From positions 62,001 to 126,000 of the forward strand of contig NZ_JAAQPI010000001.1 of assembly GCF_011683955.1 (NCBI RefSeq): DNA of 64,000 nucleotides. The letters run 5' to 3'. The notes beneath the pieces were generated by a model. That model was not told the origin of the DNA. It saw only the letters and a list, made by a program, of their open reading frames with translations, and did not search any database. Each line of letters starts with the position of its first letter. The stretch's first letter is position 1. The stretch is from Pseudomaricurvus alkylphenolicus. GTDB lineage: Bacteria > Pseudomonadota > Gammaproteobacteria > Pseudomonadales > Cellvibrionaceae. Positions 29,762 to 48,126 of the stretch are shown one piece after another. The position numbers and the translations under genes are program-made.

Positions 29762-30769
29762 ATGAGTCAACCACCCAAAGTGAGACATATCGCCACCTCC
29801 AAGGAACTGGAGCGTTGCCCATTCCCGATTCCATTCGGATGGTTCGCCATTGATTTGTCCGCAAAACTCGCCATCGGCGAGGTAAGAACCATCCAGGCGT
29901 TTGATCAAGAATGGGTTCTATTTCGAGGAGAGGACGGCTCCGTCGGCATGAGTGACCCGTTTTGCCCACATCTGGGCGCGCATTTGGGCCACGGTGGTGA
30001 GGTCGTAGGCAATAACATCCGCTGCCCGTTTCATCACTGGCAGTTTGACGCCGATGGCTGGACCAAAGATGTTCCCTACGGTAACACTCCGAAAATCTGC
30101 GAACGCCAATCGGTACTCCGTACCCTCCCGACTCAAGAACGCTACGGATTAATATGGGCCTGGTATCATCCGGACAACGCCGAGCCCAGCTTCTCTATAC
30201 CCGACGTGCCTGAGCTGGAGTCTGATAACTATATCGAGCCGCGCCTGGGCGAGTGGACCATTGATACCTGCATACAGGAGCTGGGAGAGAACTCCGTTGA
30301 TTGCCCCCACATCAAGTATCTCCATCGCAGCCCGATTATGCCAGAGGGCGTCAGCAGCGCCGACGGCCATATCTTTAACTTCGACATCTACGTCGATGAA
30401 CATATGAAGGTGCTCGGCAAGTCCTACGGCCCATCCATTCAGGTGATTCATCACGTTCATGGCGATACCCGCATTTTGATGTTTGCTATTCCACTGCCCA
30501 TCACCACGGAATCGACCTTGAGCCGCTATCTCTTTACATTCGAGAAGCATCCTAAAGGTTCCGAGCAGCAAATCAAAACCGAGCTACTCTACGATCAAGC
30601 CATCGGTTCTTCTGATCTCGGTGAGGCCGCCGGCTTTGCTGAAGTGGACATTCCCGTCTGGAACCATAAGAAGTACCGGCATCAGCCAATCCTCTGTGAC
30701 GGTGACGGTCCCATTGCCCAATGGCGCAAGTATTTCAGTCAATTCTACGCTGAAAAGACCCCGTCCTGA
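29762..30769 (+). CDS. Rieske non-heme iron oxygenase, oxygenase component (KshA/DAF-36-like)
   Basis: 335 residues. Rieske [2Fe-2S] ligands Cys68, His70, Cys88, His91 in CPHLGAHLGHGG and CPFHHW. The mononuclear iron motif is N177-x2-D180-x2-H183-x4-H188 (NSVDCPHIKYLHR), of the type in KshA and the cholesterol 7-desaturase DAF-36/Neverland. These act on steroid rings, which agrees with the ketosteroid isomerase-like gene. Slightly short for KshA (about 380). No reductase or ferredoxin gene lies in this window, so electrons must come from elsewhere. Followed 237 bases later by an Old Yellow Enzyme on the same strand. Confidence 0.88.
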   Translation: MSQPPKVRHIATSKELERCPFPIPFGWFAIDLSAKLAIGEVRTIQAFDQEWVLFRGEDGSVGMSDPFCPHLGAHLGHGGEVVGNNIRCPFHHWQFDADGWTKDVPYGNTPKICERQSVLRTLPTQERYGLIWAWYHPDNAEPSFSIPDVPELESDNYIEPRLGEWTIDTCIQELGENSVDCPHIKYLHRSPIMPEGVSSADGHIFNFDIYVDEHMKVLGKSYGPSIQVIHHVHGDTRILMFAIPLPITTESTLSRYLFTFEKHPKGSEQQIKTELLYDQAIGSSDLGEAAGFAEVDIPVWNHKKYRHQPILCDGDGPIAQWRKYFSQFYAEKTPS

Positions 30770-35502: not shown

Positions 35503-36288
35503 TTAGTTTCCAGTAAACTTAGGATCACGCTTTTCAAAAAAGGCATTGACCGACTCCTTGAAATCCTGAGTCTGTACTGTCAACATGTATTGGTCCCTGT
35601 CCATATAACTGGTTGCCTGGGCCAGAGCGTTGGCGGTCGCATTGACCGCCATCTTGGTCATCTTCACCGGAAGCGGCGGCAGAGCTGCGACACGTTCGGC
35701 AAAACTCATGGCTCGCTCCAACGTGGTACCATTGTCGGCGAGTTCTTCAACCAGCCCCCAGGATAACGCCTCTTCAGGTTCAATTAACTCGCTCAGGGTC
35801 ACGTACTGTTTTGTCCGAGCCGGACCAATTTGCGCGACTAATCTGGGTATGGTTTGCCAACTCATATTGATACCGAGGCCAATCTCCGGAAGACGCATAT
35901 GCCCTCCCCTAGCCAAGACCCGGTAGTCCAGAGCCGCAACCAATGCAGAAGCCCCCCCAATACAATAGCCTTCAATGGCCGCGATAGTGTAGGCTTCGAT
36001 GTCCTCCCAAGCCTTGCACATATCCGGCCCTAGCTTCATGATGTGACGGAGTTCAAGCAGACTGGCGTCATCGCGGAAATGGCTGGCATCGCTAAGGTCA
36101 GCTCCAGCGGAAAAATTGCCTCCGTCTGTGTATAGCACAACAGCGGTTATCTCTGGCTGATCTTGTAACATTCTTCCGGTATCACGCAGCTCTGTCATAG
36201 CCTGATGGGACAGCGCGTTGCGCCCATCCCCGCGAGACAGCTTCACCTTGGCAATGCGTCCATTGATTTCAGTTTTCACAAATTCCAT
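35503..36288 (-). CDS. Enoyl-CoA hydratase/isomerase
   Basis: 261-residue crotonase. The oxyanion hole is formed by FSAGADLS (about 55-62) and IEGYCIGGASALVAALDYRV (about 98-117); LPEIGLGINM carries the Glu region. Start 36288 (MEFVKTEI) with GAGG 8 bases before it; the ORF extends to 36348 into the SDR. It is the last gene of the TonB receptor-thiolase-MaoC-SDR-hydratase operon, with a 10-base gap to the SDR. Together with MaoC it supplies two alternative hydration chemistries. Confidence 0.92.
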   Translation of the reverse strand: MEFVKTEINGRIAKVKLSRGDGRNALSHQAMTELRDTGRMLQDQPEITAVVLYTDGGNFSAGADLSDASHFRDDASLLELRHIMKLGPDMCKAWEDIEAYTIAAIEGYCIGGASALVAALDYRVLARGGHMRLPEIGLGINMSWQTIPRLVAQIGPARTKQYVTLSELIEPEEALSWGLVEELADNGTTLERAMSFAERVAALPPLPVKMTKMAVNATANALAQATSYMDRDQYMLTVQTQDFKESVNAFFEKRDPKFTGN

Positions 36289-36298
36289 CACATCTACC

Positions 36299-37225
36299 TC
36301 AATCTTTCGGCATTTCGATGCCATAATGTTGCATCGCTTGAGTGACAAACTTTAGGGATTGTTCACCAGCGCCGTGTAATTCCTTTTCACCTTCTCGCGA
36401 AAAAATCTCGCTGCCTCGATCCAAAACTGCTTCGGGTGTCAGCTGCTCAGGCGCTATGTAAGTTCCCGATGTTTCGTACAGATGAGTACTGGCAAAGCCA
36501 CCTGCGCCGGCACAAAGAATCTGCCGATTCGGAGCATTTTCAGCACAGAGCGTTACCAGACCTGCGCTCACGACTTCAGGGCTCATCAGTTTAAACAGCT
36601 CTTCTGGCATCAACTCTTCCGTCATGCGAGTACCCGCCGCTGGGGCTAATGCATTGACTTTGATATTGTTCTTTTCGCCCTCCAGGACCAATGTATTCAT
36701 TAGACCCAACACAGCCATTTTGGCAGCACCATAATTGGCTTGCCCAAAGTTACCGTACATACCACTCGCAGAGGTGGTCATCACGATTCGGCCATAGTTC
36801 TGCTCTCGCATGATATCCCACACAGCCTTGGTACAGTGAACCGAACCCATCACATGCACGTCCATAACTAAGCGAAAATCGTCCAGCGACATCTTGCTGA
36901 AAGTCTTATCACGCAAGATCCCGGCGTTGTTGACCAAAATATCAATACGGCCCCAGCGTTCCATGGCGGTTTTAACCATGTCCTGTACTTCATCGAAGTC
37001 GGCCACATTAGCACCATGTGCGACAGCTTCCCCACCATTTTTTTCAATCAACGTCACAACGTCTTCGGCCGCTTCTGAGGAACGTCCGCTTCCATCACGA
37101 GCACCACCCAAATCATTAACGACTACCTTGGCACCACGCTCGGCCAGCAACAGAGCATGCGCCCTGCCAAGTCCGTTTCCGGCTCCCGTAATAATGGCCA
37201 CTTGACCGTCAAATCGAATTGTCAT
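36299..37225 (-). CDS. (3R)-hydroxyacyl-CoA dehydrogenase, 17beta-HSD4/MFE-2-like SDR
   Basis: 308 residues. TGAGNGLGRAHALLLAERGAKVVVNDLGG (13-41, typical of the MFE-2 dehydrogenase unit), with GARDGSGRSSEAAEDVV and a catalytic Ser152, Tyr165 and Lys169 (YGAAK). A C-terminal 60-residue extension (PEQLTPEAVLDRGSEIF) resembles the linker found after MFE-2 dehydrogenase domains. Expected to oxidise (3R)-3-hydroxyacyl-CoA from the MaoC hydratase encoded next upstream, to feed the thiolase. GAGG is upstream of the ATG. Confidence 0.92.
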   Translation of the reverse strand: MTIRFDGQVAIITGAGNGLGRAHALLLAERGAKVVVNDLGGARDGSGRSSEAAEDVVTLIEKNGGEAVAHGANVADFDEVQDMVKTAMERWGRIDILVNNAGILRDKTFSKMSLDDFRLVMDVHVMGSVHCTKAVWDIMREQNYGRIVMTTSASGMYGNFGQANYGAAKMAVLGLMNTLVLEGEKNNIKVNALAPAAGTRMTEELMPEELFKLMSPEVVSAGLVTLCAENAPNRQILCAGAGGFASTHLYETSGTYIAPEQLTPEAVLDRGSEIFSREGEKELHGAGEQSLKFVTQAMQHYGIEMPKD

Positions 37226-37262
37226 TTTTTACCTCGTAACCTTTAAGTGCTGCAATATATGT

Positions 37263-37727
37263 TCAAACCGGAACGACCAACAGACCCAACCAGTCCGCTA
37301 TTAGGGCCGGTGTATCTTCGCCTTCGATTTCAATGCTGATGTTGTAACGTATTAGAAATTGCCCGGGAGACTTTTGGGTAACTTCCGTCACTTCGGCATG
37401 GGCACGAATCCGAGAATTTACTTTGACAGGCGTTAGAAAACGCACCTTGTCAAAACCGTAATTCAATCCCATAACCGCGTCTTCCGCCACCACAGAAAAC
37501 GATTGCGAGAAATGGGAAATCATCGATAGTGTAAGAAACCCATGAGCAATGGTGCCACCAAATGGAGTTTCCGCCGCCTTGGCGGGGTCCACGTGAATAA
37601 ATTGATGATCGAGCGTGGTATCCGCGAACTTGTTGATTTGATCTTGCGTTACCTCAAACCATTCGGTCGGCTCTGCTTGATAGCCAAGTAGTGATGGCAG
37701 CTCCTTGCTTTTCACAATTTTGATCAT
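37263..37727 (-). CDS. MaoC-like (R)-specific enoyl-CoA hydratase
   Basis: 154-residue hotdog-fold protein. FADTTLDHQFIHVDPAKA (about 34-51) is the hydratase-2 motif with catalytic Asp and His, followed by PFGGTIAHGFLTLSM. It hydrates trans-2-enoyl-CoA to (3R)-hydroxyacyl-CoA. AGGG lies 8 bases before the ATG and the thiolase gene stop is 12 bases upstream. Works with the SDR downstream, whose specificity is (3R), giving a coherent R-type beta-oxidation branch. Confidence 0.92.
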   Translation of the reverse strand: MIKIVKSKELPSLLGYQAEPTEWFEVTQDQINKFADTTLDHQFIHVDPAKAAETPFGGTIAHGFLTLSMISHFSQSFSVVAEDAVMGLNYGFDKVRFLTPVKVNSRIRAHAEVTEVTQKSPGQFLIRYNISIEIEGEDTPALIADWLGLLVVPV

Positions 37728-37739
37728 GTCGCCAACCCT

Positions 37740-38945
37740 TTAATAAACTTCAAACAATCCTGCGGCACCCATTCCTGCGCCAACACACATGGTAACCACA
37801 ACGAATTTTACGCCGCGGCGCTTTCCTTCGATTAAGGCGTGGCCTACTGAACGCGCGCCCGTCATTCCGTAGGGGTGACCAATGGAAATGGCACCACCAT
37901 TAACGTTAAATATATCCGGATCTATTCCCAGCGCATCTCGACAGTACAGACACTGTGAGGCAAACGCTTCGTTTAGTTCCCACAGACCGATATCACTGAT
38001 GCTTAGGCCATTGCGCTCAAGTAAACGGGGCACTGCGTAGACCGGTCCAATACCCATTTCTTCAGGTTCACAGCCGGCTACCGCAAAACCACGAAATGCC
38101 CCTAGCGGAGTCAAATTCTGCTGCTCTGCAAGCTTGGCTTCCATCATCACAACACTGCTGGCGCCATCAGACATTTGACTTGCATTGCCGGCCGTAACAA
38201 AGCGGCCTTCTTTTATCACCAGGCCATCCTTGTGTACGGGCTCCAGCGCTGCTAGAGACTCCAGGGTAGTCTCAGGGCGATTGCACTCATCGCGATCTAC
38301 GCACCTATCGATCAAAGTGGTTTCACCGGTGGCCTTGTCCAGTTTGGCCCACTTGACATCCATAGGAACGATTTCGTCGTCGAAAGCGCCTTTCTCCTGT
38401 GCCGCCGCGGTACGTTGCTGGCTTTGCAGAGCGTACTCATCTTGATCTTCGCGACTAATACCGTATCGCTCCGCCACAATTTCTGCAGTTTCGATCATTC
38501 CCATCCATAACGCGGGTTTACTCGAAAACAGTTCCGCCTCAGTCGCTTGATGCATATTCATTTTGCCGGACATCTGTACCATGGAGATTGATTCCACGCC
38601 GCCGGCAGCCAATACCGGCACCCCTTCGTTGAGAATACGGCCGGCACCCATGGCAATGGCTTGAAGACCGGACGAGCAATAACGATTAACCGTCACACCA
38701 GACGTAGAAACCGGGCAACCGGCTTTCACCGCAGCGGTACGAGCGATATTGAACCCGGTCGCGCCTTCAGGCATACCACTCCCGAGAATCACGTCTTCCA
38801 ATTGATCGGCGCTAATGCCCGCCCTGCTGATGGCATTGTGAAGTGAATGCCCGGCTAAAGCGATGGGGTGCGTATTATTAAAACTGCCTTTGATCGACTT
38901 GGCCATACCAGTGCGAGCGGTGGAAACGATAACGGCTTCGCGCAT
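37740..38945 (-). CDS. Acetyl-CoA acyltransferase (thiolase, FadA family)
   Basis: 401 residues with a complete thiolase active site: nucleophile Cys90 ([12 protein letters not shown]), His357 ([11 protein letters not shown]) and Cys387 ([10 protein letters not shown]). It cleaves 3-ketoacyl-CoA. ATG 38945 (MREAVIV) is taken; a TTG at 38960 would lie before it. It starts 42 bases after the TonB receptor stop on the same strand and leads the beta-oxidation genes; the whole run to 35503 is probably one operon. Confidence 0.95.
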
Positions 38946-38987
38946 AAAGATAAACCTCAATAAAAATAGAAAAAGTGGTTAATAACC

Positions 38988-41270
38988 TTACATTTGGAAC
39001 TTGATGTTCAAACCCAGCTTACGTGGGTAGAGTCGTTGTTCTGGCGCAGGGGTGTAATTTGTTAACCCTATGGGGCCAGCCTGATCAAGAAGGTTTTCGC
39101 CGAAGAGGGTAAATTCCCAGTCGCCAGCTTTTACCCCCAACCGAAGTGACAGATCATTCATTTCTTCAGTGGTACTGCCCGAAGTAACCTCCATCTGTGG
39201 ACGCAGATGAGACCAGGAAAAACGCGCGAAGCCCTCTAGTTCACTAAATACCTGGGTTTGGTAATCCAACGAAAATGTTGCTGATCGCTGAGGGGCGTTG
39301 GCAAGTTCTCCCCCTTTTTCCACACCCGGCAATACGGCAGCAATAACCGGATCCACGGACGTCCATTCTGATCGATTAATATTCGCCGCCAACTGAAGCG
39401 TCAATCCTTTTACAGGAGTGGCATACATAGCACCCAGATCAAAGCCTGTAATCTCAGCATCACCGGCATTGGCGTTGGCAACCACCGTGGCAGTACTGAA
39501 TTGCAGTTGCACATCATCCCATTGGGAGTGGTAGAGCGCTGCATCAAGAACCAAACTACCGTCGAGCAATGTCCACTTGCTGCCCAGCTCAAAACTCCAA
39601 AGAGAGTCTTCGTCCAACAATGTCTCGGTATTAATGCCCATCGCGGCAGCGCCTGCGACCGAATCTGTGCCCTGCACTGAACCGCTTCGGAAACCTTTGG
39701 CTGCAGACGCATAAACCATTCCCTCTTCTGCCAGATTCCATTTAACGGCTAATCGAGGATTCAGCGAGTTCGAGGTTCCGGAAGATGAACCACCCTCGCT
39801 AATACCGGTGAAAGTGCGTTCATCCTCAAAGTACCGAAGGCCCAGACTGGGTTCCAAAACCCCGTCGAACAACATCGCAGATACTTCACCAAATACAGAA
39901 CGGGTGCTGATATCCGCCTTTCCTTTGACAAGGGTATCTCCTGTCAAGCCTCCGATGAGAGGGCCGTAAACCGGTCCCAAATTCGGCAAAGTCGTTAAAG
40001 TTTCGGATTCAAATTCAGCCTCGCTAATGAATACCCCGACTAACCAGTTGAGGTTCGAATCTCCGTTGGAGACCAAACGCAGTTCCTGAGTAACACTCTC
40101 TGTTTCATAGAGGGCTGTGATGTCAGAAAGCCCCCCCGCAAACTCCAGAGTCCAAGGCAACTGGTGATCCATATAACTGGTGCCGCTGACCAGCGTGGCA
40201 AAGCCCAAATCCCAGTCAACCTGGACCGAAGCCATATCCAAGCCCGAATCCAACTCGTTGTGAGACTCAGAACGCGCCTGCAGGTAGTCACTGTAGGCAT
40301 CTTGGTAGAAGGTACCACCAGCCATTGGATCCGGGTTTGGACCCACAACGGCGAAGGTCACGGGGTCGAGAATAACCGCCAGATCAGCAGCGCCGGCAAT
40401 TGGTGCCAAAGTGGCAGCGGTTGCCTGATCCAAAGCTGGATAGAGCTCACCCTTCGCATCCACAAAACTGCTGAAATCCTGGTTGGACTCCATATGCCAA
40501 AGTGTCGCTTCAATGCTCAATTCATCATTGGGTGTGAAGTTGAGTTTCACTCTAACATTACTGGAATCTGAATCGCCCAGCTTGTCTTCATCGGGAAAGT
40601 CCGGGGATTTACCGTAACCGGAAGTCTTATCCATACCACCACTGACACGCAGACCTAGCTTGTCTTCGATCAGCGGCAAATTGACAGAAAAATCTGCATA
40701 GTAACTCAGATCCGCGCCACTGGCGCTGGCGATACCGGTCTGGAATTTCGCCTGAAATTCATTGGGATTAGCATCAGCGGTTATGATTTTCACCGTGCCC
40801 CCCATAGAACCCTGTCCGTAAAGTGTTCCCTGAGGGCCGCGCAGTACTTCAATTCGTTCAAGGTCAAAAAAACGAGCCGGAGGTGCCACCTGCAAATTTG
40901 GCACGCCGAATGCCAACTCATCTATGTAGTATCCTGTGGTTGCCTCTCCGGTCGTACCACTGGAAATCCCACGAATTTGCATCGTCTGCCAACCGGCGGC
41001 GGGAGCGTTTACAAAAGATGCAGAGGGAATCATGCCAGCAATGTCTTCCAGCCCAGTGACACCCAGATTTTCTAAGTTGTCACCGGTAAATGCCTGAAGT
41101 GAGCCAGCCACATCTGTTAATGACTGTTCCCTCTTTTGCGCTGTCACCACAATTTCTTCTATGGAGAAGTCGGTGAATTCATCAGCGTGGATTACGCCAG
41201 GCGACAATGCAGCCAGCAGAGTAGCGCTTATCAGGTTACGGGGAAAACGGATTAAGCCGATATGTTCCAT
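38988..41270 (-). CDS. TonB-dependent outer-membrane receptor
   Basis: 760 residues. Signal peptide of about 29 residues, plug motifs EEIVVTAQKREQSL, MQIRGISSGTTG, IEVLRGPQGTLYGQGSMGGTV, barrel to the C-terminal Met. It is first in the operon leading to thiolase, MaoC, SDR and hydratase. Two copies of the GTTTATAC-type operator lie 75-122 bases upstream of the start (41345-41392), tying uptake to the TetR-regulated set. Ligand unknown; probably the substrate of this regulon. Confidence 0.93.
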   Translation of the reverse strand: MEHIGLIRFPRNLISATLLAALSPGVIHADEFTDFSIEEIVVTAQKREQSLTDVAGSLQAFTGDNLENLGVTGLEDIAGMIPSASFVNAPAAGWQTMQIRGISSGTTGEATTGYYIDELAFGVPNLQVAPPARFFDLERIEVLRGPQGTLYGQGSMGGTVKIITADANPNEFQAKFQTGIASASGADLSYYADFSVNLPLIEDKLGLRVSGGMDKTSGYGKSPDFPDEDKLGDSDSSNVRVKLNFTPNDELSIEATLWHMESNQDFSSFVDAKGELYPALDQATAATLAPIAGAADLAVILDPVTFAVVGPNPDPMAGGTFYQDAYSDYLQARSESHNELDSGLDMASVQVDWDLGFATLVSGTSYMDHQLPWTLEFAGGLSDITALYETESVTQELRLVSNGDSNLNWLVGVFISEAEFESETLTTLPNLGPVYGPLIGGLTGDTLVKGKADISTRSVFGEVSAMLFDGVLEPSLGLRYFEDERTFTGISEGGSSSGTSNSLNPRLAVKWNLAEEGMVYASAAKGFRSGSVQGTDSVAGAAAMGINTETLLDEDSLWSFELGSKWTLLDGSLVLDAALYHSQWDDVQLQFSTATVVANANAGDAEITGFDLGAMYATPVKGLTLQLAANINRSEWTSVDPVIAAVLPGVEKGGELANAPQRSATFSLDYQTQVFSELEGFARFSWSHLRPQMEVTSGSTTEEMNDLSLRLGVKAGDWEFTLFGENLLDQAGPIGLTNYTPAPEQRLYPRKLGLNIKFQM

Positions 41271-41344
41271 GGGAGTCGCCTCTTGTAATTGTCTTTATGA
41301 TAGTTCTCTGCAATGAGCTTTGTTGAAATTCAGTGCCTACCACT

Positions 41345-41392
41345 GTTTATACCGAGCGGTAGTCACTTATGTTTATACTATTTGGTATATAC
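41345..41392. promoter_or_regulatory. Two tandem TetR-type operators (TATAC-N6-GTATA class)
   Basis: Site A, 41345-41366: GTTTATAC-CGAGCG-GTAGTCAC (right arm weak). Site B, 41371-41392: GTTTATAC-TATTTG-GTATATAC. The left arms are identical and start 26 bases apart. They stand between the TonB receptor operon (start 41270) and the alcohol dehydrogenase stop (41527), so they act on the receptor promoter. Confidence 0.75.
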
Positions 41393-41526
41393 ACAGGCAG
41401 TCAAGAAACTTTATGGATAAATTGTTCATTAATATCCCGTTCTTCATTCCGGATTGGCAGCACGAGTCCGAAAAAAGGCCGCAATTGCGACCTAAAGGTA
41501 GAGAAGTAGGAGAGGTAAAACGAGCC

Positions 41527-42549
41527 TCAAGACCAAGGCTCAATTAAGATCTTGGCGTGCTGCTCAGGATCTTTTAACGCCTCAAATGCGTCGCTAACGC
41601 CACGCAGATTCACTCTACCGGTGATCCAGGGTCGCCAATTAAAACGCTCCTCGGCTAATGCCTGAAGCGATTCTGCAAATTCCTCCGGCGTGTAGTAAGT
41701 CACAAATTGCAGGCACAGCTCCTTACTGACAGCTAGCATGGGCATAAACAAATCCTCCTCCATACATATACCCGCTATCACCACTCGAGACCCCTGGGGC
41801 GCTCCGACAATTATCTCGTGGATCAGGCCCTTGAGCCCCACGCACTCGAAAATGATGTTGTCAGTGGCGGTAATTGACTGCAGCGCCTCATAGGGGTTCT
41901 CCTCAGCGGGATTGACGACTCGTGACGCTCCCATTTGCTCCGCCAGCTGGCGGCGACGATTTGAATAATCCGCCGCAATGATCTGCGTAACACCTCGCAT
42001 ACGCAGTGCCGCGACTGTCGCCAAGCCAATAGGCCCGCAACCGATAACGAGCGCCGCGTCGGTGCTAACCGCGTTGGCTTTCGCCACCGCGTGAACCCCT
42101 ATAGCCAGGGGTTCGGCCAACGCCGCGGCGTCATTGCTCATAGATTCAGGAACCAGAACTAACGCAGCCTCTGTCAACAACAAGTACTGTGCGTAGGCAC
42201 CCGTAGTCGCCTTACTGGCACCGATGGGAATTACGACCCCGTCCTTCATCAGGAACGGAACGCTGGTAACCCGATCCCCAACTGCCAAGGCTTCCGTGGT
42301 CTCGGGCCCAAAGGAAACGATTTCGCCCACAAACTCGTGCCCTAACACCATATCAGTGCCAATATCGTCGATTGGGGCGCCTGCGGCAGCCGCTTTGGCC
42401 ACCAAATCCGGCCCCTGATTGAACAAGTGAATATCCGAGCCACAGATCCCACAGCTCAGCACCTTCACTAACACTTGCCCCGGTCCCGGCTGCGGTGTGG
42501 GAATGTCTTCAATCCAGAATTGTTTATCTCGGATGATAGCGGCCTGCAT
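41527..42549 (-). CDS. Zinc-containing alcohol dehydrogenase (MDR family)
   Basis: 340 residues, threonine/sorbitol dehydrogenase-like MDR. SCGICGSDIHLF (about 34-45) and VLGHEFVGEIVSFG (about 69-82) hold the catalytic zinc ligands (Cys and His-Glu), while the usual four-Cys structural zinc loop is not evident. VIGCGPIGLATVAALRMRGV is the NAD(P)-binding fold. Start 42549 has AGGAGG at 7 bases. Third gene of the PF10118-cupin-ADH operon; 19 bases separate it from the cupin. Oxidises a secondary alcohol; substrate unknown. Confidence 0.9.
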   Translation of the reverse strand: MQAAIIRDKQFWIEDIPTPQPGPGQVLVKVLSCGICGSDIHLFNQGPDLVAKAAAAGAPIDDIGTDMVLGHEFVGEIVSFGPETTEALAVGDRVTSVPFLMKDGVVIPIGASKATTGAYAQYLLLTEAALVLVPESMSNDAAALAEPLAIGVHAVAKANAVSTDAALVIGCGPIGLATVAALRMRGVTQIIAADYSNRRRQLAEQMGASRVVNPAEENPYEALQSITATDNIIFECVGLKGLIHEIIVGAPQGSRVVIAGICMEEDLFMPMLAVSKELCLQFVTYYTPEEFAESLQALAEERFNWRPWITGRVNLRGVSDAFEALKDPEQHAKILIEPWS

Positions 42550-42568
42550 GTTGACGCCTCCTGTTCGT

Positions 42569-43135
42569 TCAATCGTCGGTAAGATTTTCGCCCACGACAA
42601 TCAGCTTGTCGTAGCCCAGCCCGAGAGCATCGCAATAAGTTCGGTATCCTTGCAGAACCGCATTGGCATCCACAATAGAAGTCACCTGATTATTGTCATC
42701 AAGATTGATGTTAGCGCCATAGACTGCAAACCAGACTTCAGTCGGCCCATCTTGATCTTCAGGTACCATCAAACTGTGAACGGACATTGGCGGTTCAAAC
42801 AGATAAGATCCGGGGCTGTTGATCTGATCGGGTGTTTCTTTGTAATACCAGCGACCTTTTTGAGTTACAGCAAAAACACTGCCGGTATGGTAGTGCTTTT
42901 CAACCGCAACCCCAGGCTGCATGCGGTTGCGAGTAATCCAAAGCCCCTGAGCAAGATCGACGTGGAGTAATTGGATCTCGGCCCCATTGCCCAGATCTAC
43001 CCAAGGCATGTCTTCAATACCCACATGAAGGGTGTCGGCAACACCGTGCTCAGGAATCAAGGGCATGCTCTTGGCGGATTCGGCGAGCTTCATCAGGATA
43101 GCTTCTTTGTCTTGTGGTTCAGACGTTTTATTCAT
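42569..43135 (-). CDS. Cupin dioxygenase-like protein (2,4'-dihydroxyacetophenone dioxygenase type)
   Basis: 188 residues, single cupin domain. The metal-binding pattern is His81-x-His83 in EKHYHTGSV, a Glu around 100 (YYKET) and His120 (PMSVHSL). WITRNRMQPGVAVEKHYH and FAVTQKGRWYYKE are characteristic of the DHAP/acetylacetone dioxygenase group, which cleave C-C bonds beside a ketone using Fe. It lies between the PF10118 and alcohol dehydrogenase genes. Cleavage of an alpha-hydroxy ketone or diketone is a reasonable guess. Confidence 0.75.
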   Translation of the reverse strand: MNKTSEPQDKEAILMKLAESAKSMPLIPEHGVADTLHVGIEDMPWVDLGNGAEIQLLHVDLAQGLWITRNRMQPGVAVEKHYHTGSVFAVTQKGRWYYKETPDQINSPGSYLFEPPMSVHSLMVPEDQDGPTEVWFAVYGANINLDDNNQVTSIVDANAVLQGYRTYCDALGLGYDKLIVVGENLTDD

Positions 43136-43173
43136 AGTGTTTTCTCACTGAATTGGATTATTGCCCGTGGAGC

Positions 43174-43998
43174 TTAACGGGTAGTCGTGGCCAGTTCGTT
43201 GTACCGTTTTTGTACCTGTGCGAGCACAGCTGGCAGTTCAAATTTACGCGGCGAATACCAAGGCATATAGATATTCAATACCTTGGGCAGCGCCTTAAGC
43301 AGGTATTTGCTTGTGCGTTTTATTCGCAACCAACGCTGGGAGCGACTGTTGTATTTTTGAAAGGTATTTGGGTCTGCGTCACGAAGAATTTTGGCCAACT
43401 TCATGCTCAGAGAAATAAAGTGCCATTGAGCCCAAAGCCCGACGAACAAACGGTAAAAGTAACCGCCACTAACAGCTTCGTAGGCCTCAAACGCCACATT
43501 GCGGTGCTCTAGCTCCTCCAACACATGCCATTCAATTAACTCGCGGATGGGACTGTGCATCGCGTCAAAAAAACCAACTTCAAACTGAGCCCGTGAAGTC
43601 GCAGAGGTCATCGCCTCAAAGCCTTCAGCGTAGGCAAGATTAAAACGCAAGGACTTCTCCTTGCTCAGTCGCTTGTACTCAGCATCGATTGTGTCTTCCA
43701 ATGCCTGCAGTTTATCTGCGGCGCCGCTGCGCAGTCGTACAACTTCATTGGCCTTCGCGTGCTCTTTATAGTGGTTACCCTCCTGCGCGCAAAAACGTTG
43801 CATTTCCTCCTTCAACTCTTGGTCATTAACCTGCTTCATGGCCATGCGCACAGAGCGAATCAGATAGGGCTCCAGATAAGGCAACAGCATCCAGCTGCCG
43901 AGAAACATATAAGACATGGCCGGATCCTGGTCGACAAACACCAGCTCCATGTCTTTGTCAAAATGAAAGTCCATCTGACGCACAGTAATTGAATCCAT
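43174..43998 (-). CDS. PF10118-type metal-dependent hydrolase/oxygenase-like protein
   Basis: 274 residues of the poorly characterised PF10118 family. All-helical with ferritin-like ExxH patterns: Glu73-x2-His76 and His80 (QEGNHYKEH), Glu160-x2-His163 (EWHVLEELEHRNVAFE), and Glu124/Glu126 in YAEGFEAMTS, which would suit a di-iron site. Annotations call such proteins hydrolases, but the carboxylate-His pattern also suits di-iron oxygenation; no function is proven. AGGAG lies 7 bases before the ATG. First gene of the operon with the cupin and zinc dehydrogenase, divergent from TetR with the operator in between. Confidence 0.75.
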   Translation of the reverse strand: MDSITVRQMDFHFDKDMELVFVDQDPAMSYMFLGSWMLLPYLEPYLIRSVRMAMKQVNDQELKEEMQRFCAQEGNHYKEHAKANEVVRLRSGAADKLQALEDTIDAEYKRLSKEKSLRFNLAYAEGFEAMTSATSRAQFEVGFFDAMHSPIRELIEWHVLEELEHRNVAFEAYEAVSGGYFYRLFVGLWAQWHFISLSMKLAKILRDADPNTFQKYNSRSQRWLRIKRTSKYLLKALPKVLNIYMPWYSPRKFELPAVLAQVQKRYNELATTTR

Positions 43999-44118
43999 CG
44001 GTGGGCTCCTGGTGGCACGATAATCGAGTGCAGCTGCCTGTGATTAAATTTGACGATTCCGCACAATGTTGTAAACTTCAACATTAGGTTAGCGGCCCCA
44101 CAGGAGGGCTGTCAACAA

Positions 44119-44140
44119 CTTTTTACCCACTGGTATATAC
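44119..44140. promoter_or_regulatory. TetR-type operator in the divergent PF10118/TetR promoter
   Basis: CTTTTTAC-CCACTG-GTATATAC: the right arm matches the sites at 41371-41392, the left arm is degenerate. It ends two bases before the TetR ATG at 44143, so binding would block its translation start or transcription, and possibly the divergent PF10118 operon. Confidence 0.6.
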
Positions 44141-44142
44141 AT

Positions 44143-44763
44143 ATGAGCTATCACCACGGAAACCTGAGAGAAGCCCTGCTTATAAGAGCCGAGGAGGTCA
44201 TTGAGGAAAAGGGCCTGGACGCAGTGAAACTAAGTGCCCTGGCGAAAGATCTGGGTGTGTCGCACAACGCGCCATCAAGGCATTTTAAGGATAGAAATGG
44301 ACTGATCTCCGTTCTTGCCGCCCGTGCTCTCGATGCGCTCAAGGACTTTGTCGCTGGGGCAGCAGGCATTTCCAGCGACGATCCTATTGAGCGTTTGAAC
44401 ACACTCCTGAAGCATTATGTGCTGCACGCAGCCAAGCGCCCTGCCCACTTTGTAGTGCTCACCCATCCGGAACTCCCACGATTGGCCGGGGAAACGTTTA
44501 CCAAATCTCACCGCGACTACACAGCCTTTGTACACAGTTTCACGCTAGAGGCCCAAAAAGCAGGTTGGCGTAGTGACGACGACAGCGATCAACTGACGTT
44601 GCTAAACCTGTCCATGGCACTGGGTTTAGCGGTGATGGGGCAATATGCTGTCAAAACTGGGTTTGTTACCAGTGAAGAAAGTATGCGCAATATGGAGGCA
44701 TCTATCGATTTGTTTATCCCGGTTCGACAACAGGAGGCCGATCACCGTGAACAGCATCAGTAA
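44143..44763 (+). CDS. TetR-family transcriptional regulator
   Basis: 206 residues starting MSYHHGNLREALLIRAEEVIEEKG, a typical TetR N-terminus, followed by the helix-turn-helix KLSALAKDLGVSHNAPSRHFKDRNGLI (about 34-60). The ORF extends to 44050 but the family start is clearly 44143. It overlaps the downstream alpha/beta hydrolase gene by 17 bases. It is one of two TetR genes in the 35-48 kb regulon (other at 47464); which one reads the shared operator cannot be told from the sequence. Confidence 0.92.
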   Translation: MSYHHGNLREALLIRAEEVIEEKGLDAVKLSALAKDLGVSHNAPSRHFKDRNGLISVLAARALDALKDFVAGAAGISSDDPIERLNTLLKHYVLHAAKRPAHFVVLTHPELPRLAGETFTKSHRDYTAFVHSFTLEAQKAGWRSDDDSDQLTLLNLSMALGLAVMGQYAVKTGFVTSEESMRNMEASIDLFIPVRQQEADHREQHQ

Positions 44764-45667
44764 TATCGATTCACTGGAATCAATTATTCTGCGAAATGGC
44801 GAACGACAGTTCACCGCTCTGAGCGCCGGCTCCGGGCCTCTGGTGCTGTTACTCCATGGATTTCCTGATGGCCCCTGCAGCTTTCGACATCAGCTCACAG
44901 CTCTTGCCGCCGCCGGCTACCGTGCGATAGCCCCGACCATGCGCGGGTATGAGCCTTCTTCCCAAGGCAGCCTCGAAGGGTATCACGCGGCAGATATGGC
45001 TTCAGATGCAGTGGCCTGGCTTGACCAATTGGGCGCAGACAGAGCACATCTGATTGGTCATGACTGGGGATCTACCATAGCAACCGCAGCCGCTTCAATG
45101 GCTCCTGAGCGTTGGCACTCACTGAGCCTGTTATCAGTCCCCCATCCCGGTCGATTTCAACAAGAGGGATTGAGAGTTCCTCAGCAACTTAAGAACTCCT
45201 GGTACTTATTTTTCTTTCAGTTACGAGGCTTTGCGGACTGGTGGGTAAAACGTAAAAATTACGCCTTTCTGGAATATCTTTGGCGCAAGTGGTCTCCGAA
45301 TTGGGCCGGAGTAACTCAGGAACTGCCGGACTTAAAGAGACGCTTTCAGCAAGCCGGTGTACTGAAAGCGAGCCTTCAATATTATCGGCTGGCGCTGGAT
45401 ACAACCTCCCCACAAGGAAAGTTGAGTCGCGAACTGCTGAATGGCGAGATAAGGATCCCAACACTAGGGCTGACAGGCTTGAACGATGGCTGCATCAAGG
45501 CTGAAGCATTTCGGCTATGCATGAAAAAGGAAGATTTTCCCGCAGGCCTTTCTGTTGAGCTAATAGACGATGCGGGGCATTTTTTACAACTCGAGCAACC
45601 TCAAGCAGTCAATCGAGCCTTGCTGGCCTGGCTACGAGAAAATGATGGGTCAGCTCATCCGAGCTGA
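44747..45667 (+). CDS. Alpha/beta hydrolase, epoxide-hydrolase-like
   Basis: 306 residues from a GTG start with AGGAGG upstream, inside the end of the TetR gene. HGFPDGPCSF (oxyanion loop), IGHDWGSTIA (nucleophile Asp, as in epoxide hydrolases and haloalkane dehalogenases) and DDAGHFLQLEQP (catalytic His) mark it; the two cap Tyr of epoxide hydrolases are plausible around SLQYYRLAL. Would open an epoxide to a diol or dehalogenate. Convergent with, and overlapping by 13 bases, the acyl-CoA ligase gene. Confidence 0.85.
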   Translation: MNSISNIDSLESIILRNGERQFTALSAGSGPLVLLLHGFPDGPCSFRHQLTALAAAGYRAIAPTMRGYEPSSQGSLEGYHAADMASDAVAWLDQLGADRAHLIGHDWGSTIATAAASMAPERWHSLSLLSVPHPGRFQQEGLRVPQQLKNSWYLFFFQLRGFADWWVKRKNYAFLEYLWRKWSPNWAGVTQELPDLKRRFQQAGVLKASLQYYRLALDTTSPQGKLSRELLNGEIRIPTLGLTGLNDGCIKAEAFRLCMKKEDFPAGLSVELIDDAGHFLQLEQPQAVNRALLAWLRENDGSAHPS

Positions 45668-47244
45668 CCGCTTTCAATGCGCTCATTCAGATCTTCGCGC
45701 AATCGTTGCTTATCAATTTTCGAGTTGGGCAGCAGCGGCATTTCGGTCAAGAACTCAAATTGCTTGGGGATCTTGAAGTTGGCAATGCGCTCATTCAAGA
45801 AAGCTTTTAGAGCAGGAGCATCCAAGTTGGCGCCGGCCTTTGGTACCACAAACGCAAACCCCACCTCCTGGAATTTTTTATCCGCCATACTCAGCACTGC
45901 CGCTTGTGCAACATCGGCATGTTCACAGATGGCCTGTTCGACTTCCACCGGATACACGTTATAGCCACCGGACTTAAACATCTCTTTGATTCGACCCACA
46001 AACTCATAGTTGCCATCCGCTCTTAACTTGCAGATATCACCGGTGTGCAAGAATCCGTCTTCCGTCAAAGCCTCCGCAGTTGCCTCAGGTCGATTGTAAT
46101 ACCCGCTCATTACAAAAGGCGCTCTCACTAGCAGCTCGCCTGGCTCCCCTACTCCCACCTCGACACCGGAGCTGTTGATCACTTTCAGTTCCACCTCTTC
46201 CAGCGCCACCCCAATGGTCTCGGCCTTTACTTCCAGTGATGCATCAAACGCAGTAGCGGTAACGATACCGCAGGTTTCCGTCTGGCCATATACCGACGAC
46301 ATTTTGGCTCCCAGGGGCACAAACTGTTCGAGAGTACTCTGGGCAGTAGTGGCACCACCATAGACGATAAGTTCAACGAAATCGATCAGACTCAGCTCGA
46401 ACGCCGGGCTGTCCAGCAGCATATTAAAACCCGTTGGACTGGTGACCATATAGGGTGGCCGTTCCTGTTGATTCAGTTGATATAGTGCTATCGGATCGAC
46501 GCGATGATAAAAGATGATGGTTCCACCCCAGGCGAATACATTCATGCAGATATTATTTAAACAGCCGACATGATTGATAGGCGCGGGACAGATTACTTTG
46601 CGCAAGCCCTCACCCATCCAGCGTGCATTGATTTGTGCCGACTTGGCAATAGCCCGCTGTGACAGCATGGCCCCCTTCGGATTGCCCGTGGTACCAGAGG
46701 TGTAGACAATAACCGCCACATCTTCCGGTTGCACAGTGTTGCGAGCCTGATCCAACTGTAAATCAGTTATCCCCTCCCCATGGTCCAGAAAGTTCTCCAA
46801 GGCCAACGCTGATCCTCTCGGCTGCCCAAGGGTAACGAAAGTCTCCACCTTATCCGTCAGGTCCTGCAATTCTTCATCGTAATGTCGCTCATCATAGGGA
46901 GAGAAGGTAAAGACCACCTTTGGCTGGGCATCCTCCAGCAGATACTGATAATCCCGGCTTTTGTAACGAGGATTCAGTCCATGCCAAACGGCTCCAATGG
47001 AAACCGCCGCCAGATAGCTGATAAAGAAAAGCCCACAAGGCGGTGCCAATGTGGCAACACGATCACCCCTCCGAACTCCAGTAGCAAGAAGCGCACGGGC
47101 ATACTGATTGACCCTTTGCTGGAGCTCTCTATACGTGAGACGAACATCCCCATCAATCACTGCCTCATCGTCGGGGTGCATTTTAAGGTTCTTCTGTAAC
47201 AGATCATAAATCCGCAGCTCGTCACTTCCCGATGCGTCAGTCAT
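45655..47244 (-). CDS. AMP-dependent acyl-CoA ligase (FadD type)
   Basis: 529 residues. P-loop VIVYTSGTTGNPKGAM (about 182-197), VYGQTETCGIV (about 324), TGDICKLRADGNYEFVGRIKEM (about 410-432, adenylate motif) and the catalytic Lys of LPNSKIDKQRLR (about 515). ATG 47244 (MTDAS) with GAGGA upstream is chosen over TTG 47262. A perfect operator copy lies 33 bases upstream (47277-47298), so this activation step belongs to the regulon with the receptor. Acid substrate unknown. Confidence 0.93.
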   Translation of the reverse strand: MTDASGSDELRIYDLLQKNLKMHPDDEAVIDGDVRLTYRELQQRVNQYARALLATGVRRGDRVATLAPPCGLFFISYLAAVSIGAVWHGLNPRYKSRDYQYLLEDAQPKVVFTFSPYDERHYDEELQDLTDKVETFVTLGQPRGSALALENFLDHGEGITDLQLDQARNTVQPEDVAVIVYTSGTTGNPKGAMLSQRAIAKSAQINARWMGEGLRKVICPAPINHVGCLNNICMNVFAWGGTIIFYHRVDPIALYQLNQQERPPYMVTSPTGFNMLLDSPAFELSLIDFVELIVYGGATTAQSTLEQFVPLGAKMSSVYGQTETCGIVTATAFDASLEVKAETIGVALEEVELKVINSSGVEVGVGEPGELLVRAPFVMSGYYNRPEATAEALTEDGFLHTGDICKLRADGNYEFVGRIKEMFKSGGYNVYPVEVEQAICEHADVAQAAVLSMADKKFQEVGFAFVVPKAGANLDAPALKAFLNERIANFKIPKQFEFLTEMPLLPNSKIDKQRLREDLNERIESGQLG

Positions 47245-47276
47245 GCAATATTCCTCGATCAAAGCAAATCCGTACT

Positions 47277-47298
47277 GTTTATACTTTGTGGTATAAAC
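47277..47298. promoter_or_regulatory. TetR-type operator upstream of the acyl-CoA ligase (perfect copy)
   Basis: GTTTATAC-TTTGTG-GTATAAAC is a perfect 8-6-8 inverted repeat, 33 bases upstream of the ligase ATG, in the gap before the TetR gene at 47464-48081. This is the best copy of the shared operator. Confidence 0.85.
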
Positions 47299-47463
47299 AG
47301 AGATAAGTCAATCCCCTGGCCGCTTATATTGCGCAATACAGAAAACCAAAAGAAGGGGGAAATGTGGTGGAAAACTGAAACGTCAGCGCTTAACGATCTG
47401 TGAGTTCGATAAGCTGCGTTGAGGAATGAGTGAAAGTGAACAAGGAGACCTACTGGCAGCCTG

Positions 47464-48081
47464 TCAAGGCTTTAGGCCCTCACCAATAACATCAAAGAAA
47501 CCATCAAACAGCTGCTCTGTATCAATTTCCTCTTGGAAATACCACTGGGGAATGAAATTGAAAGCACCAATAATCGCATAAGCACTTAAAACCGGGTCCT
47601 GAGGGCGGATGGAGCCGTCATCGATACCTTCCTGAATCAATCCCTGAACCAAATCTATGAATCGCCGGCGGGCCTTGCCAAATGCCTTGCGGCTCTCTGG
47701 TTTCAACTGCTTGACATCGATAGCCACCAGACATTGCCCAAAGTCGTTGGCAACGTTCTCGGTATAAGCCTTCAACAATCCACGTAATTTATCCATGCCT
47801 GAAAGCTCCTCGCTTTCAAGCTGATTCAGCAGGATATCCAAACCCCTTGTTCCCTGCTTAAGGCACTCAGTAATAATATTCTCTTTGTTACCGACATAGT
47901 GATAGATAGTCGGTTTGGTAACACCCAGTCGACGAGCAATTTCGTCGATGGATGTTTTGGCAACACCATTTTCAACAAAAGCTCGTGCAGCTTCGCGCAA
48001 CACCATATATTTGCGCTCCTCAAAGTCTGCATTGGTGTCTACGCCAATACGTCGGGCAAAGCTTTTGGAACCTTTAGTCAT
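47464..48081 (-). CDS. TetR-family transcriptional regulator
   Basis: 205 residues. Helix-turn-helix TSIDEIARRLGVTKPTIYHYVGNKENII (about 43-70). The N-terminus (MTKGSKSFARRIGVDTNADFEERKYMVLREAARAFVENG) is longer than usual. A C-terminal ligand domain follows (YTENVANDFGQCLVAIDVKQL). It transcribes towards the ligase gene, and the operator at 48105-48126 lies 24 bases upstream of its ATG, suggesting autorepression. A good candidate for the regulator of the TATAC-N6-GTATA sites. Confidence 0.92.
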   Translation of the reverse strand: MTKGSKSFARRIGVDTNADFEERKYMVLREAARAFVENGVAKTSIDEIARRLGVTKPTIYHYVGNKENIITECLKQGTRGLDILLNQLESEELSGMDKLRGLLKAYTENVANDFGQCLVAIDVKQLKPESRKAFGKARRRFIDLVQGLIQEGIDDGSIRPQDPVLSAYAIIGAFNFIPQWYFQEEIDTEQLFDGFFDVIGEGLKP

Positions 48082-48104
48082 TAGAACGCCTCAATCTGTC
48101 CAAT

Positions 48105-48126
48105 CTTTATACTAACAAGTATAGAG
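48105..48126. promoter_or_regulatory. TetR-type operator upstream of the TetR gene
   Basis: CTTTATAC-TAACAA-GTATAGAG, 8-6-8 with one arm mismatch, 24 bases upstream of the TetR start at 48081. Arms match the ligase copy at TTTATAC and GTATA. Confidence 0.75.

Follow-up and report, generated by a model that had tools for sequence, protein, structure and literature searches.

The stretch studied here is a 64-kb window (64,000 nucleotides, positions 62,001 to 126,000 of contig NZ_JAAQPI010000001.1) of the genome of the gammaproteobacterium Pseudomaricurvus alkylphenolicus, and all positions below refer to it unless another contig is named. Between 35503 and 48126 it bears a set of catabolic genes, two genes for TetR-type regulators and five similar palindromes. 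Do these genes form a single regulon, which of the two TetR proteins governs it, and what chemistry do its products perform? A preliminary description had taken the palindromes for a TetR-type operator shared by every transcription unit of a complete and undescribed degradation route, with either TetR as the possible regulator. Here, we provide evidence for a TetR regulon of an ordinary and known kind, specific to one pathway, the cognate regulator of which can be named. We propose that it serves a route cleaving a C=C bond through an epoxide, a diol and a hydroxyketone, with a protein of the PF10118 family at the entry. Taken as a whole, this explanation is the best we can offer, but it is a tentative one, to which we give slightly less than an even chance.

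Results

The window was scanned with the 22-mer pattern GTTTATAC-N6-GTATAAAC (8-6-8), allowing up to three mismatches. Five matches were obtained, compared to 0.08 on average and never more than 2 in shuffled sequences, so that all five operator-like sites of the preliminary description were recovered. The perfect site (47277-47298) precedes the acyl-CoA ligase gene, and the site with one mismatch (41371-41392) precedes the operon of the TonB receptor and beta-oxidation genes. The other three bear three mismatches each: 48105-48126 lies before the TetR gene 47464-48081, for which we propose autoregulation; 41345-41366 lies 26 bp closer to the TonB gene than its stronger neighbor; and 44119-44140 occupies the gap between the divergent PF10118 and TetR genes, directly before the ATG at 44143. 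Just as claimed earlier, every transcription unit between 35503 and 48081 (units judged from gene order) has a site, the divergent pair having one in common and the TonB operon two upstream. Those at 41345 and 44119 are weaker and should be taken as candidate sites.

In the whole 8.88 Mb genome, the 22-mer gave 26 sites at up to three mismatches vs. 15 for a reversed control pattern. Sites with no or one mismatch were found only in this cluster, all 21 outside sites having three mismatches; strong sites are thus not scattered through the genome at a similar density. From the window sites we read a tighter 16-mer core, TATACY-N4-RGTATA (6-4-6), which replaces the 8-6-8 element as the useful form of the motif, while the sites themselves stand. 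Its exact form occurs only three times in the genome, at 41374, 47280 and 48108 of the window, within at most 6.8 kb and each time before genes of one cluster; the site at 44119 differs from it by one mismatch. When two mismatches were allowed, 443 sites appeared, fewer than with the reversed control (928), which makes such loose matches uninformative. The inner 12-mer, TACY-N4-RGTA, is kept in all five window sites, including the one at 41345, and two further copies in the window (12276 and 50377) both fall within open reading frames (ORFs).

Outside the cluster, 23 distinct places were inspected, comprising 10 of the 21 sites of the 22-mer set and 15 of the 19 sites of the one-mismatch 16-mer set, two of them common to both. 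Twenty fall on an ORF that is 100 residues or longer (some of these ORFs may be spurious) and three are clear of such ORFs (C8:103170, C13:22585 and C13:33586, given by contig and position). The idea of a wider regulon was rejected: none of the 23 places precedes a similar catabolic operon, according to a visual check of the first 60 residues. A promoter scan gave 7 hits vs. 7.0 expected from shuffles, that is, no excess, and the GC content (0.47-0.54) gives no sign of a foreign origin of the region.

Two genes of the cluster encode TetR-type proteins. The product of 47464-48081 (minus strand) has the two parts expected of the family, a TetR_N DNA-binding domain (PF00440, E-value 4e-13) and a TetR C-terminal domain (TetR_C_24, PF17932, 1.7e-18); the product of 44143-44763 (plus strand) was assigned by family match. 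For the former, 33 homologue loci were collected, 5 from a class sample, 17 from a phylum sample and 11 from 129 plasmid records. The exact TACY-N4-RGTA was present within 350 bp upstream in 17 of these 33 loci, compared to 0.36 expected from shuffles and to none in downstream control stretches of equal length at the same loci. For 44143-44763, the exact core was found upstream in none of 21 homologue loci. Because the homologues of 47464-48081 carry the core upstream and those of the other TetR do not, the choice narrows to 47464-48081 as the most likely regulator of the sites. In other words, the earlier suggestion of either TetR holds mainly for one of the two, and that of a shared TetR-type operator with a local regulon is supported both by the rarity of the sites and by the homologue loci.

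The annotated homologues bearing a site adjoin genes for acyl-CoA synthetases, acyl-CoA dehydrogenases, thiolases, hydratases or short-chain dehydrogenases (SDRs), and these neighbors point to a CoA thioester as the most likely ligand. We predict that the repressor encoded by 47464-48081 belongs to the DarR/FadR/KstR2 type and governs a local regulon. Some features of the comparison tell against it. The core pattern was refined on the same 33 loci before the test, which was consequently not blind, with the same pattern used for the controls; when one mismatch was allowed, 18 upstream vs. 4 downstream matches were obtained among the 33 loci; and the 16 loci without the exact core include both loci of the highest identity (42% and 43%). 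As a separate observation, in three loci of one genus the TetR homologue is preceded by the variant TTACC-N4-GGTAA or by a sequence close to it, which suggests a lineage-specific tuning of the core.

The regulon comprises 12 genes (35503-48081), the families of which were assigned with Pfam and NCBIfam. Besides the two TetR genes they encode, on the minus strand unless noted, an enoyl-CoA hydratase/isomerase (35503-36288), an SDR, probably specific for (3R)-hydroxyacyl-CoA as far as its stereochemistry can be inferred (36299-37225), a MaoC-type hydratase (37263-37727), a thiolase (37740-38945, with an internal ATG taken as the start), a TonB-dependent outer-membrane receptor (38988-41270), a zinc dehydrogenase (41527-42549), a cupin (42569-43135), the PF10118 protein (43174-43998), an alpha/beta-hydrolase (44645-45667, plus strand, true start uncertain and overlapping the TetR gene) and an acyl-CoA ligase (45655-47244). 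The starts of the hydratase/isomerase, dehydrogenase and ligase genes were likewise inferred. None of the 12 genes encodes an acyl-CoA dehydrogenase or an oxygenase reductase, and no flavin monooxygenase was recognized among them. Because an acyl-CoA dehydrogenase is absent, the regulon is incomplete as a beta-oxidation set, unless the acid formed is already unsaturated, and the words "complete" and "full" of the preliminary description have to be dropped.

The alpha/beta-hydrolase is closest to solved epoxide hydrolases (E-value 7.8e-38) and bears the motifs of such enzymes, namely GHDWGS with the Asp nucleophile, the HGFP oxyanion motif and the C-terminal His. For the dehydrogenase, the sole solved match at 1e-35 is (R,R)-butanediol dehydrogenase (1.3e-36), an enzyme type that works between diol and hydroxyketone in both directions, and we propose the step from diol to hydroxyketone for it. 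The profile of the cupin gave a match to 2,4'-dihydroxyacetophenone dioxygenase (DAD) at 2e-11, stronger matches being two cupins of uncharacterized function. In DAD, the iron is held by three histidines, catalysis is supported by a tyrosine, and Asp63 holds the phenol OH of 2,4'-dihydroxyacetophenone, according to the published account consulted in part (PMC4219425). When the window cupin was aligned to DAD by eye, the fold family, the three histidines (H81, H83, H120) and the tyrosine (Y98) were seen to be kept, all four residues being invariant in 3/3 sequences, whereas the equivalent of Asp63 is Thr68. The protein would thus be a relative of DAD rather than DAD itself, and the Asp-to-Thr exchange points to a non-phenolic hydroxyketone as the substrate of the proposed C-C cleavage. 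Together, the epoxide hydrolase, the butanediol-type dehydrogenase, the cupin, the ligase and the beta-oxidation enzymes make a chemically coherent set, as far as the reaction of each can be predicted from its relatives.

The PF10118 family is named predicted metal-dependent hydrolase in Pfam. In an alignment of six homologues, E43, E73xxH76, H80, E125, E140, E161, E162 and H165 are invariant (6/6), and a pattern E/ExxH/E/ExxH (E43, E73xxH76, E125, E162xxH165) is predicted to lie on helices 26-54, 60-91, 117-140 and 151-176. A wider alignment of 14 rows, three of them truncated and all 14 matching PF10118, kept E162 and H165 invariant and H76 and E128 at 90% or above, with E43, E73 and E125 outside these columns. 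The model built from the 14 rows reached a pLDDT of 88.6 and a pTM of 0.87, compared to a pLDDT of only 45 for a two-sequence model. Its natural Foldseek matches begin with R2-like ligand-binding oxidases, followed by ribonucleotide reductases and, lower, by aldehyde-deformylating oxygenases; the R2-like ones (ranks 2, 3 and 5-14) have probabilities of 0.95-1.00 at E-values of 0.03 or worse and TM-scores of about 0.38-0.44. The top solved-structure match of the profile, a ribonucleotide reductase, aligns E, H, E, E and H with E73, H76, E125, E162 and H165, and a weak Pfam Ferritin-like match (0.097) was obtained for one of the six members. Alignment and model favor a ferritin-like di-iron protein rather than a hydrolase. 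This assignment is opposed by the E-value of the profile match, which at 0.14 is not significant; by the third-helix ligand, which falls on E125 in the 6-row but on E128 in the 14-row alignment; by the first Foldseek row, a de novo helical bundle; and by the weakness of the Foldseek matches, none of which reaches 0.001, with TM-scores of about 0.36-0.47 for the R2 types listed. Thus, the likeness to R2-like oxidases and to ribonucleotide reductase R2 consists in a modeled helical bundle with the E/ExxH/E/ExxH pattern, the difference being a sequence similarity short of significance and a TM-score of about 0.4.

Furthermore, the gene set recurs. In the same genome, a second cluster on contig C18 (C18:25001-45000) encodes relatives of the PF10118 protein (44%), the cupin (62.5%), the dehydrogenase (44%), the epoxide hydrolase (44%), the thiolase (34%) and the ligase (27% over part of it), together with an AraC-type regulator, an acyl-CoA dehydrogenase of its own and a hydratase/dehydrogenase fusion. 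Neither window TetR was matched within its 20 kb at 1e-5, and contig C18 bears no 16-mer site with 0 or 1 mismatch and a single 3-mismatch 22-mer site, about 18 kb away (C18:8928). A Prescottella equi plasmid bears eight of the functions, MaoC (52%), cupin (50%), PF10118 (47%), SDR (45%), thiolase (39%), dehydrogenase (33%), epoxide hydrolase (33%) and ligase (25%). The Prescottella cluster also has a Fer2 reductase, and apart from the candidate PF10118 none of its annotated products is an oxygenase that depends on a reductase; its TetR shares 19% identity with 47464-48081 (6e-5) and has no meaningful match to 44143-44763.

Other plasmids bear parts of the set. A dehydrogenase, a cupin, a ligase and an epoxide hydrolase (45% over 121 residues) were found in Agrobacterium deltaense, and a dehydrogenase, a cupin, a ligase, a thiolase and a TonB receptor in Sphingomonas panacis, whose TetR gave no tblastn match at 1e-6 to either window TetR. 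Both modules are without PF10118, and the Sphingomonas one is also without the epoxide hydrolase. In Pseudoalteromonas, an oxidoreductase, a cupin and a ligase are annotated, the window dehydrogenase having no match there at 1e-6. Of 13 plasmid records with the cupin, 8 were inspected, and a dehydrogenase or oxidoreductase gene adjoins it in four, namely those of Prescottella, Agrobacterium, Sphingomonas and Pseudoalteromonas. No such gene stands beside the cupin in Mycobacterium branderi, and two Cupriavidus stretches and one Paraburkholderia stretch, all unannotated, gave no dehydrogenase or ligase match. At 1e-90, the window ligase had no match among the plasmids. The catabolic module is thus recurrent and chemically coherent, its most constant part being dehydrogenase, cupin and ligase; PF10118 and the epoxide hydrolase are optional inputs, not needed for this core, since the Agrobacterium and Sphingomonas modules manage without the one and the latter without both.

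Among relatives, the cluster is rare in the genomes sampled, as follows from the counts of two of its proteins. At 1e-20, the TetR of 47464-48081 was found in 1 of 144 genomes of the family, which is its own; with the own genome counted in each case, more distant homologues occur in 5 of 369 class genomes (cutoff 1e-18) and in 18 of 398 phylum genomes (cutoff 1e-20). PF10118 was found at 1e-30 in 4 of 144 of the family, the own genome again counted, and a cutoff of 1e-50 left the own genome as the single carrier among the 369 class genomes. This genome bears two PF10118 genes at 1e-30, each within a similar module, and measures 8.88 Mb vs. 4.0-5.7 Mb in the five congeners searched.

PF10118 was also sought in viruses. 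None of three PF10118 proteins had a match in PHROGs, no PF10118 was found in viral contigs scanned by protein, and a scan of genome contigs gave one distant member (28%). Proteins with the PF10118 motifs are encoded at 17 loci on viral contigs of IMG/VR, several of them identical to one another; 12 of the 17 were placed in the alignment and all 12 match PF10118 in Pfam. These loci may be phage-carried genes or host contamination.

Outside the regulon, 29762-30769 encodes a Rieske protein with a KshA-type C-terminal domain, which hints at steroid-like substrates nearby. Two long similar proteins of 828 and 827 residues, encoded on opposite strands at 10634-13120 and 25135-27618, look like tandem CoA-transferases when read from the ORF list.

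Discussion

In the scheme that we infer, the TetR of 47464-48081 would bind TATACY-N4-RGTATA before its own gene, the ligase gene and the TonB/beta-oxidation operon, and more weakly at the divergent PF10118/TetR pair, thereby repressing these units. Its release would be brought about by an intermediate of the pathway, most likely a CoA thioester. A substrate containing a C=C bond would enter through the TonB receptor; the PF10118 protein, as a di-iron oxygenase, would convert the C=C to an epoxide, the epoxide hydrolase would open this to a vicinal diol, the butanediol-type dehydrogenase would oxidize the diol to an alpha-hydroxyketone, and the cupin dioxygenase would split the C-C bond of the latter to give two acids. 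The ligase would then activate an acid to the acyl-CoA, and the MaoC and enoyl-CoA hydratases, the R-type SDR and the thiolase would shorten it. The least certain step of the scheme is the entry oxygenase, proposed for PF10118 because its gene stands near one for an epoxide hydrolase and, in the Prescottella cluster, near a reductase gene as well.

The strongest rival keeps the same TetR regulon but supposes that the substrate already has a diol, hydroxyketone or epoxide, for example as a lignin-type aryl hydroxyketone, with PF10118 acting as a hydrolase, an accessory metal protein or an oxygenase elsewhere rather than as an epoxidase; this is a serious possibility, against which we nevertheless lean. 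Several observations weigh for it and against the epoxidation scheme. The Agrobacterium and Sphingomonas plasmids have dehydrogenase, cupin and ligase without PF10118, and the window regulon lacks a reductase as well as an acyl-CoA dehydrogenase. To the hydrolase name in Pfam is added a study in which a PF10118 group, again called a metal-dependent hydrolase, emerged among the candidate lanthipeptide proteases as the one correlating best with a group of Streptomyces precursors, the evidence, in the part of the paper used here, being correlation and co-expression (PMC8960859). In Novosphingobium MBES04, as partly excerpted, a four-gene cluster (G-II) led by a DAD-like gene is induced via its promoter by guaiacylhydroxypropanone, a lignin phenylpropanone, so that a hydroxyketone may enter such a module directly (PMC10866074). 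Both papers slightly lowered our confidence in the overall scheme and in the PF10118 epoxidase. The same rival has to contend with the conserved E/ExxH/E/ExxH pattern in a modeled helical bundle nearest R2-like oxidases, with the annotated Prescottella cluster, where the Fer2 reductase has no other annotated partner oxygenase, and with the loss of the residue holding the phenol OH in the window cupin.

Control of the sites by the TetR of 44143-44763, or by both TetRs jointly, would agree with the site directly before its start codon and with the place of its gene amid the regulon. The absence of the exact core at its 21 homologue loci, compared to 17 of 33 for the other TetR, makes this improbable, even if its homologues are weaker (30-42%, several over the N-terminal half only) and the test is therefore less sensitive for it. 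That the palindromes are due to chance and the genes an ordinary unlinked catabolic patch was rejected on the genome-wide counts and is very improbable. Such a view can draw on weak 22-mer matches being common, as the 26 sites and the 15 of the reversed control show, and on the 16-mer at two mismatches being rarer than its own reversed control. It leaves unexplained why the exact 16-mer occurs three times in the entire genome, all before genes of one cluster, and why the core is conserved upstream of the homologues of 47464-48081.

These results have two consequences. Sequence comparison now ties the operator core to that of DarR and, across proteobacteria, to a single TetR subfamily, a link that would allow regulon prediction for many unannotated TetR proteins. 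If the proposed order of the enzymes is true, the PF10118 family, annotated as a hydrolase, gains a testable function, and C=C bonds could be cut without a lactone-forming monooxygenase. A bolder extension holds that the PF10118 family is widespread and consists of ferritin-like di-iron oxygenases, here epoxidizing C=C, and that with epoxide hydrolase, diol dehydrogenase and DAD-type cupin, which would cleave the bond to two acids, it makes up a new bacterial alkene-scission route in proteobacteria and actinobacteria under different regulators; we regard this as rather unlikely.

As to novelty, the openly licensed literature, judged by titles and abstract beginnings among the matches listed, contains no description of this gene set, and neither COG3687 nor Metal_hydrol is named in what was searched of it. 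The route can be called undescribed in this sense only, as a DAD-like cluster is known in Novosphingobium MBES04. As far as the description goes, the two are alike in that a DAD-like gene forms part of a cluster, there induced and resembling an operon, and differ in that the remaining three products there are called hypothetical in the part of the report at hand (PMC10866074).

Among known regulators, the solved relative DarR resembles the TetR of 47464-48081 at an E-value of 1.5e-13. The DarR operator is ATACT-N4-AGTAT, and DarR contacts bases with Lys44 and Gly45, Lys44 touching the guanine opposite the C of a TxC motif (PMC10636190, in part). By sequence, both TATACY-N4-RGTATA and the 12-mer of the homologues match this operator, the Thr-Lys of the recognition helix is also present in 47464-48081, and autoregulation is proposed here as in DarR. 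Against the parallel, Thr-Lys-Gly is changed to Thr-Lys-Pro, so that the base-contacting Gly45 is replaced; the Lys44-Gly45 pair is not kept and the protein was not classed as DarR. Moreover, the DarR targets named in the portion of that paper used here are its own gene, a transporter, cspA and fatty-acid synthesis genes in mycobacteria, with c-di-AMP as the ligand, vs. catabolic operons in a proteobacterium (PMC10636190). The likeness to KstR2 and FadR lies in a TetR_C_24-type protein with a local catabolic regulon and homologues often beside acyl-CoA genes, the similarity being moderate to weak (1.6e-12 for Bacillus-type FadR and about 2e-9 for KstR2). The operators of KstR2 and FadR differ from the window core.

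For the enzymes, the closest described logic is that of limonene degradation. Limonene epoxide hydrolase differs in fold from the alpha/beta-type. In the limonene 1,2-epoxide route of Rhodococcus erythropolis DCL14, as outlined in the available part of the source, a monooxygenase forms the epoxide, an epoxide hydrolase the diol and a diol dehydrogenase the hydroxyketone, which then undergoes oxygenative cleavage (PMC4097962). The two schemes part at this last step: a monooxygenase makes a lactone from the hydroxyketone in Rhodococcus, whereas here a DAD-type cupin dioxygenase is proposed to cleave it.

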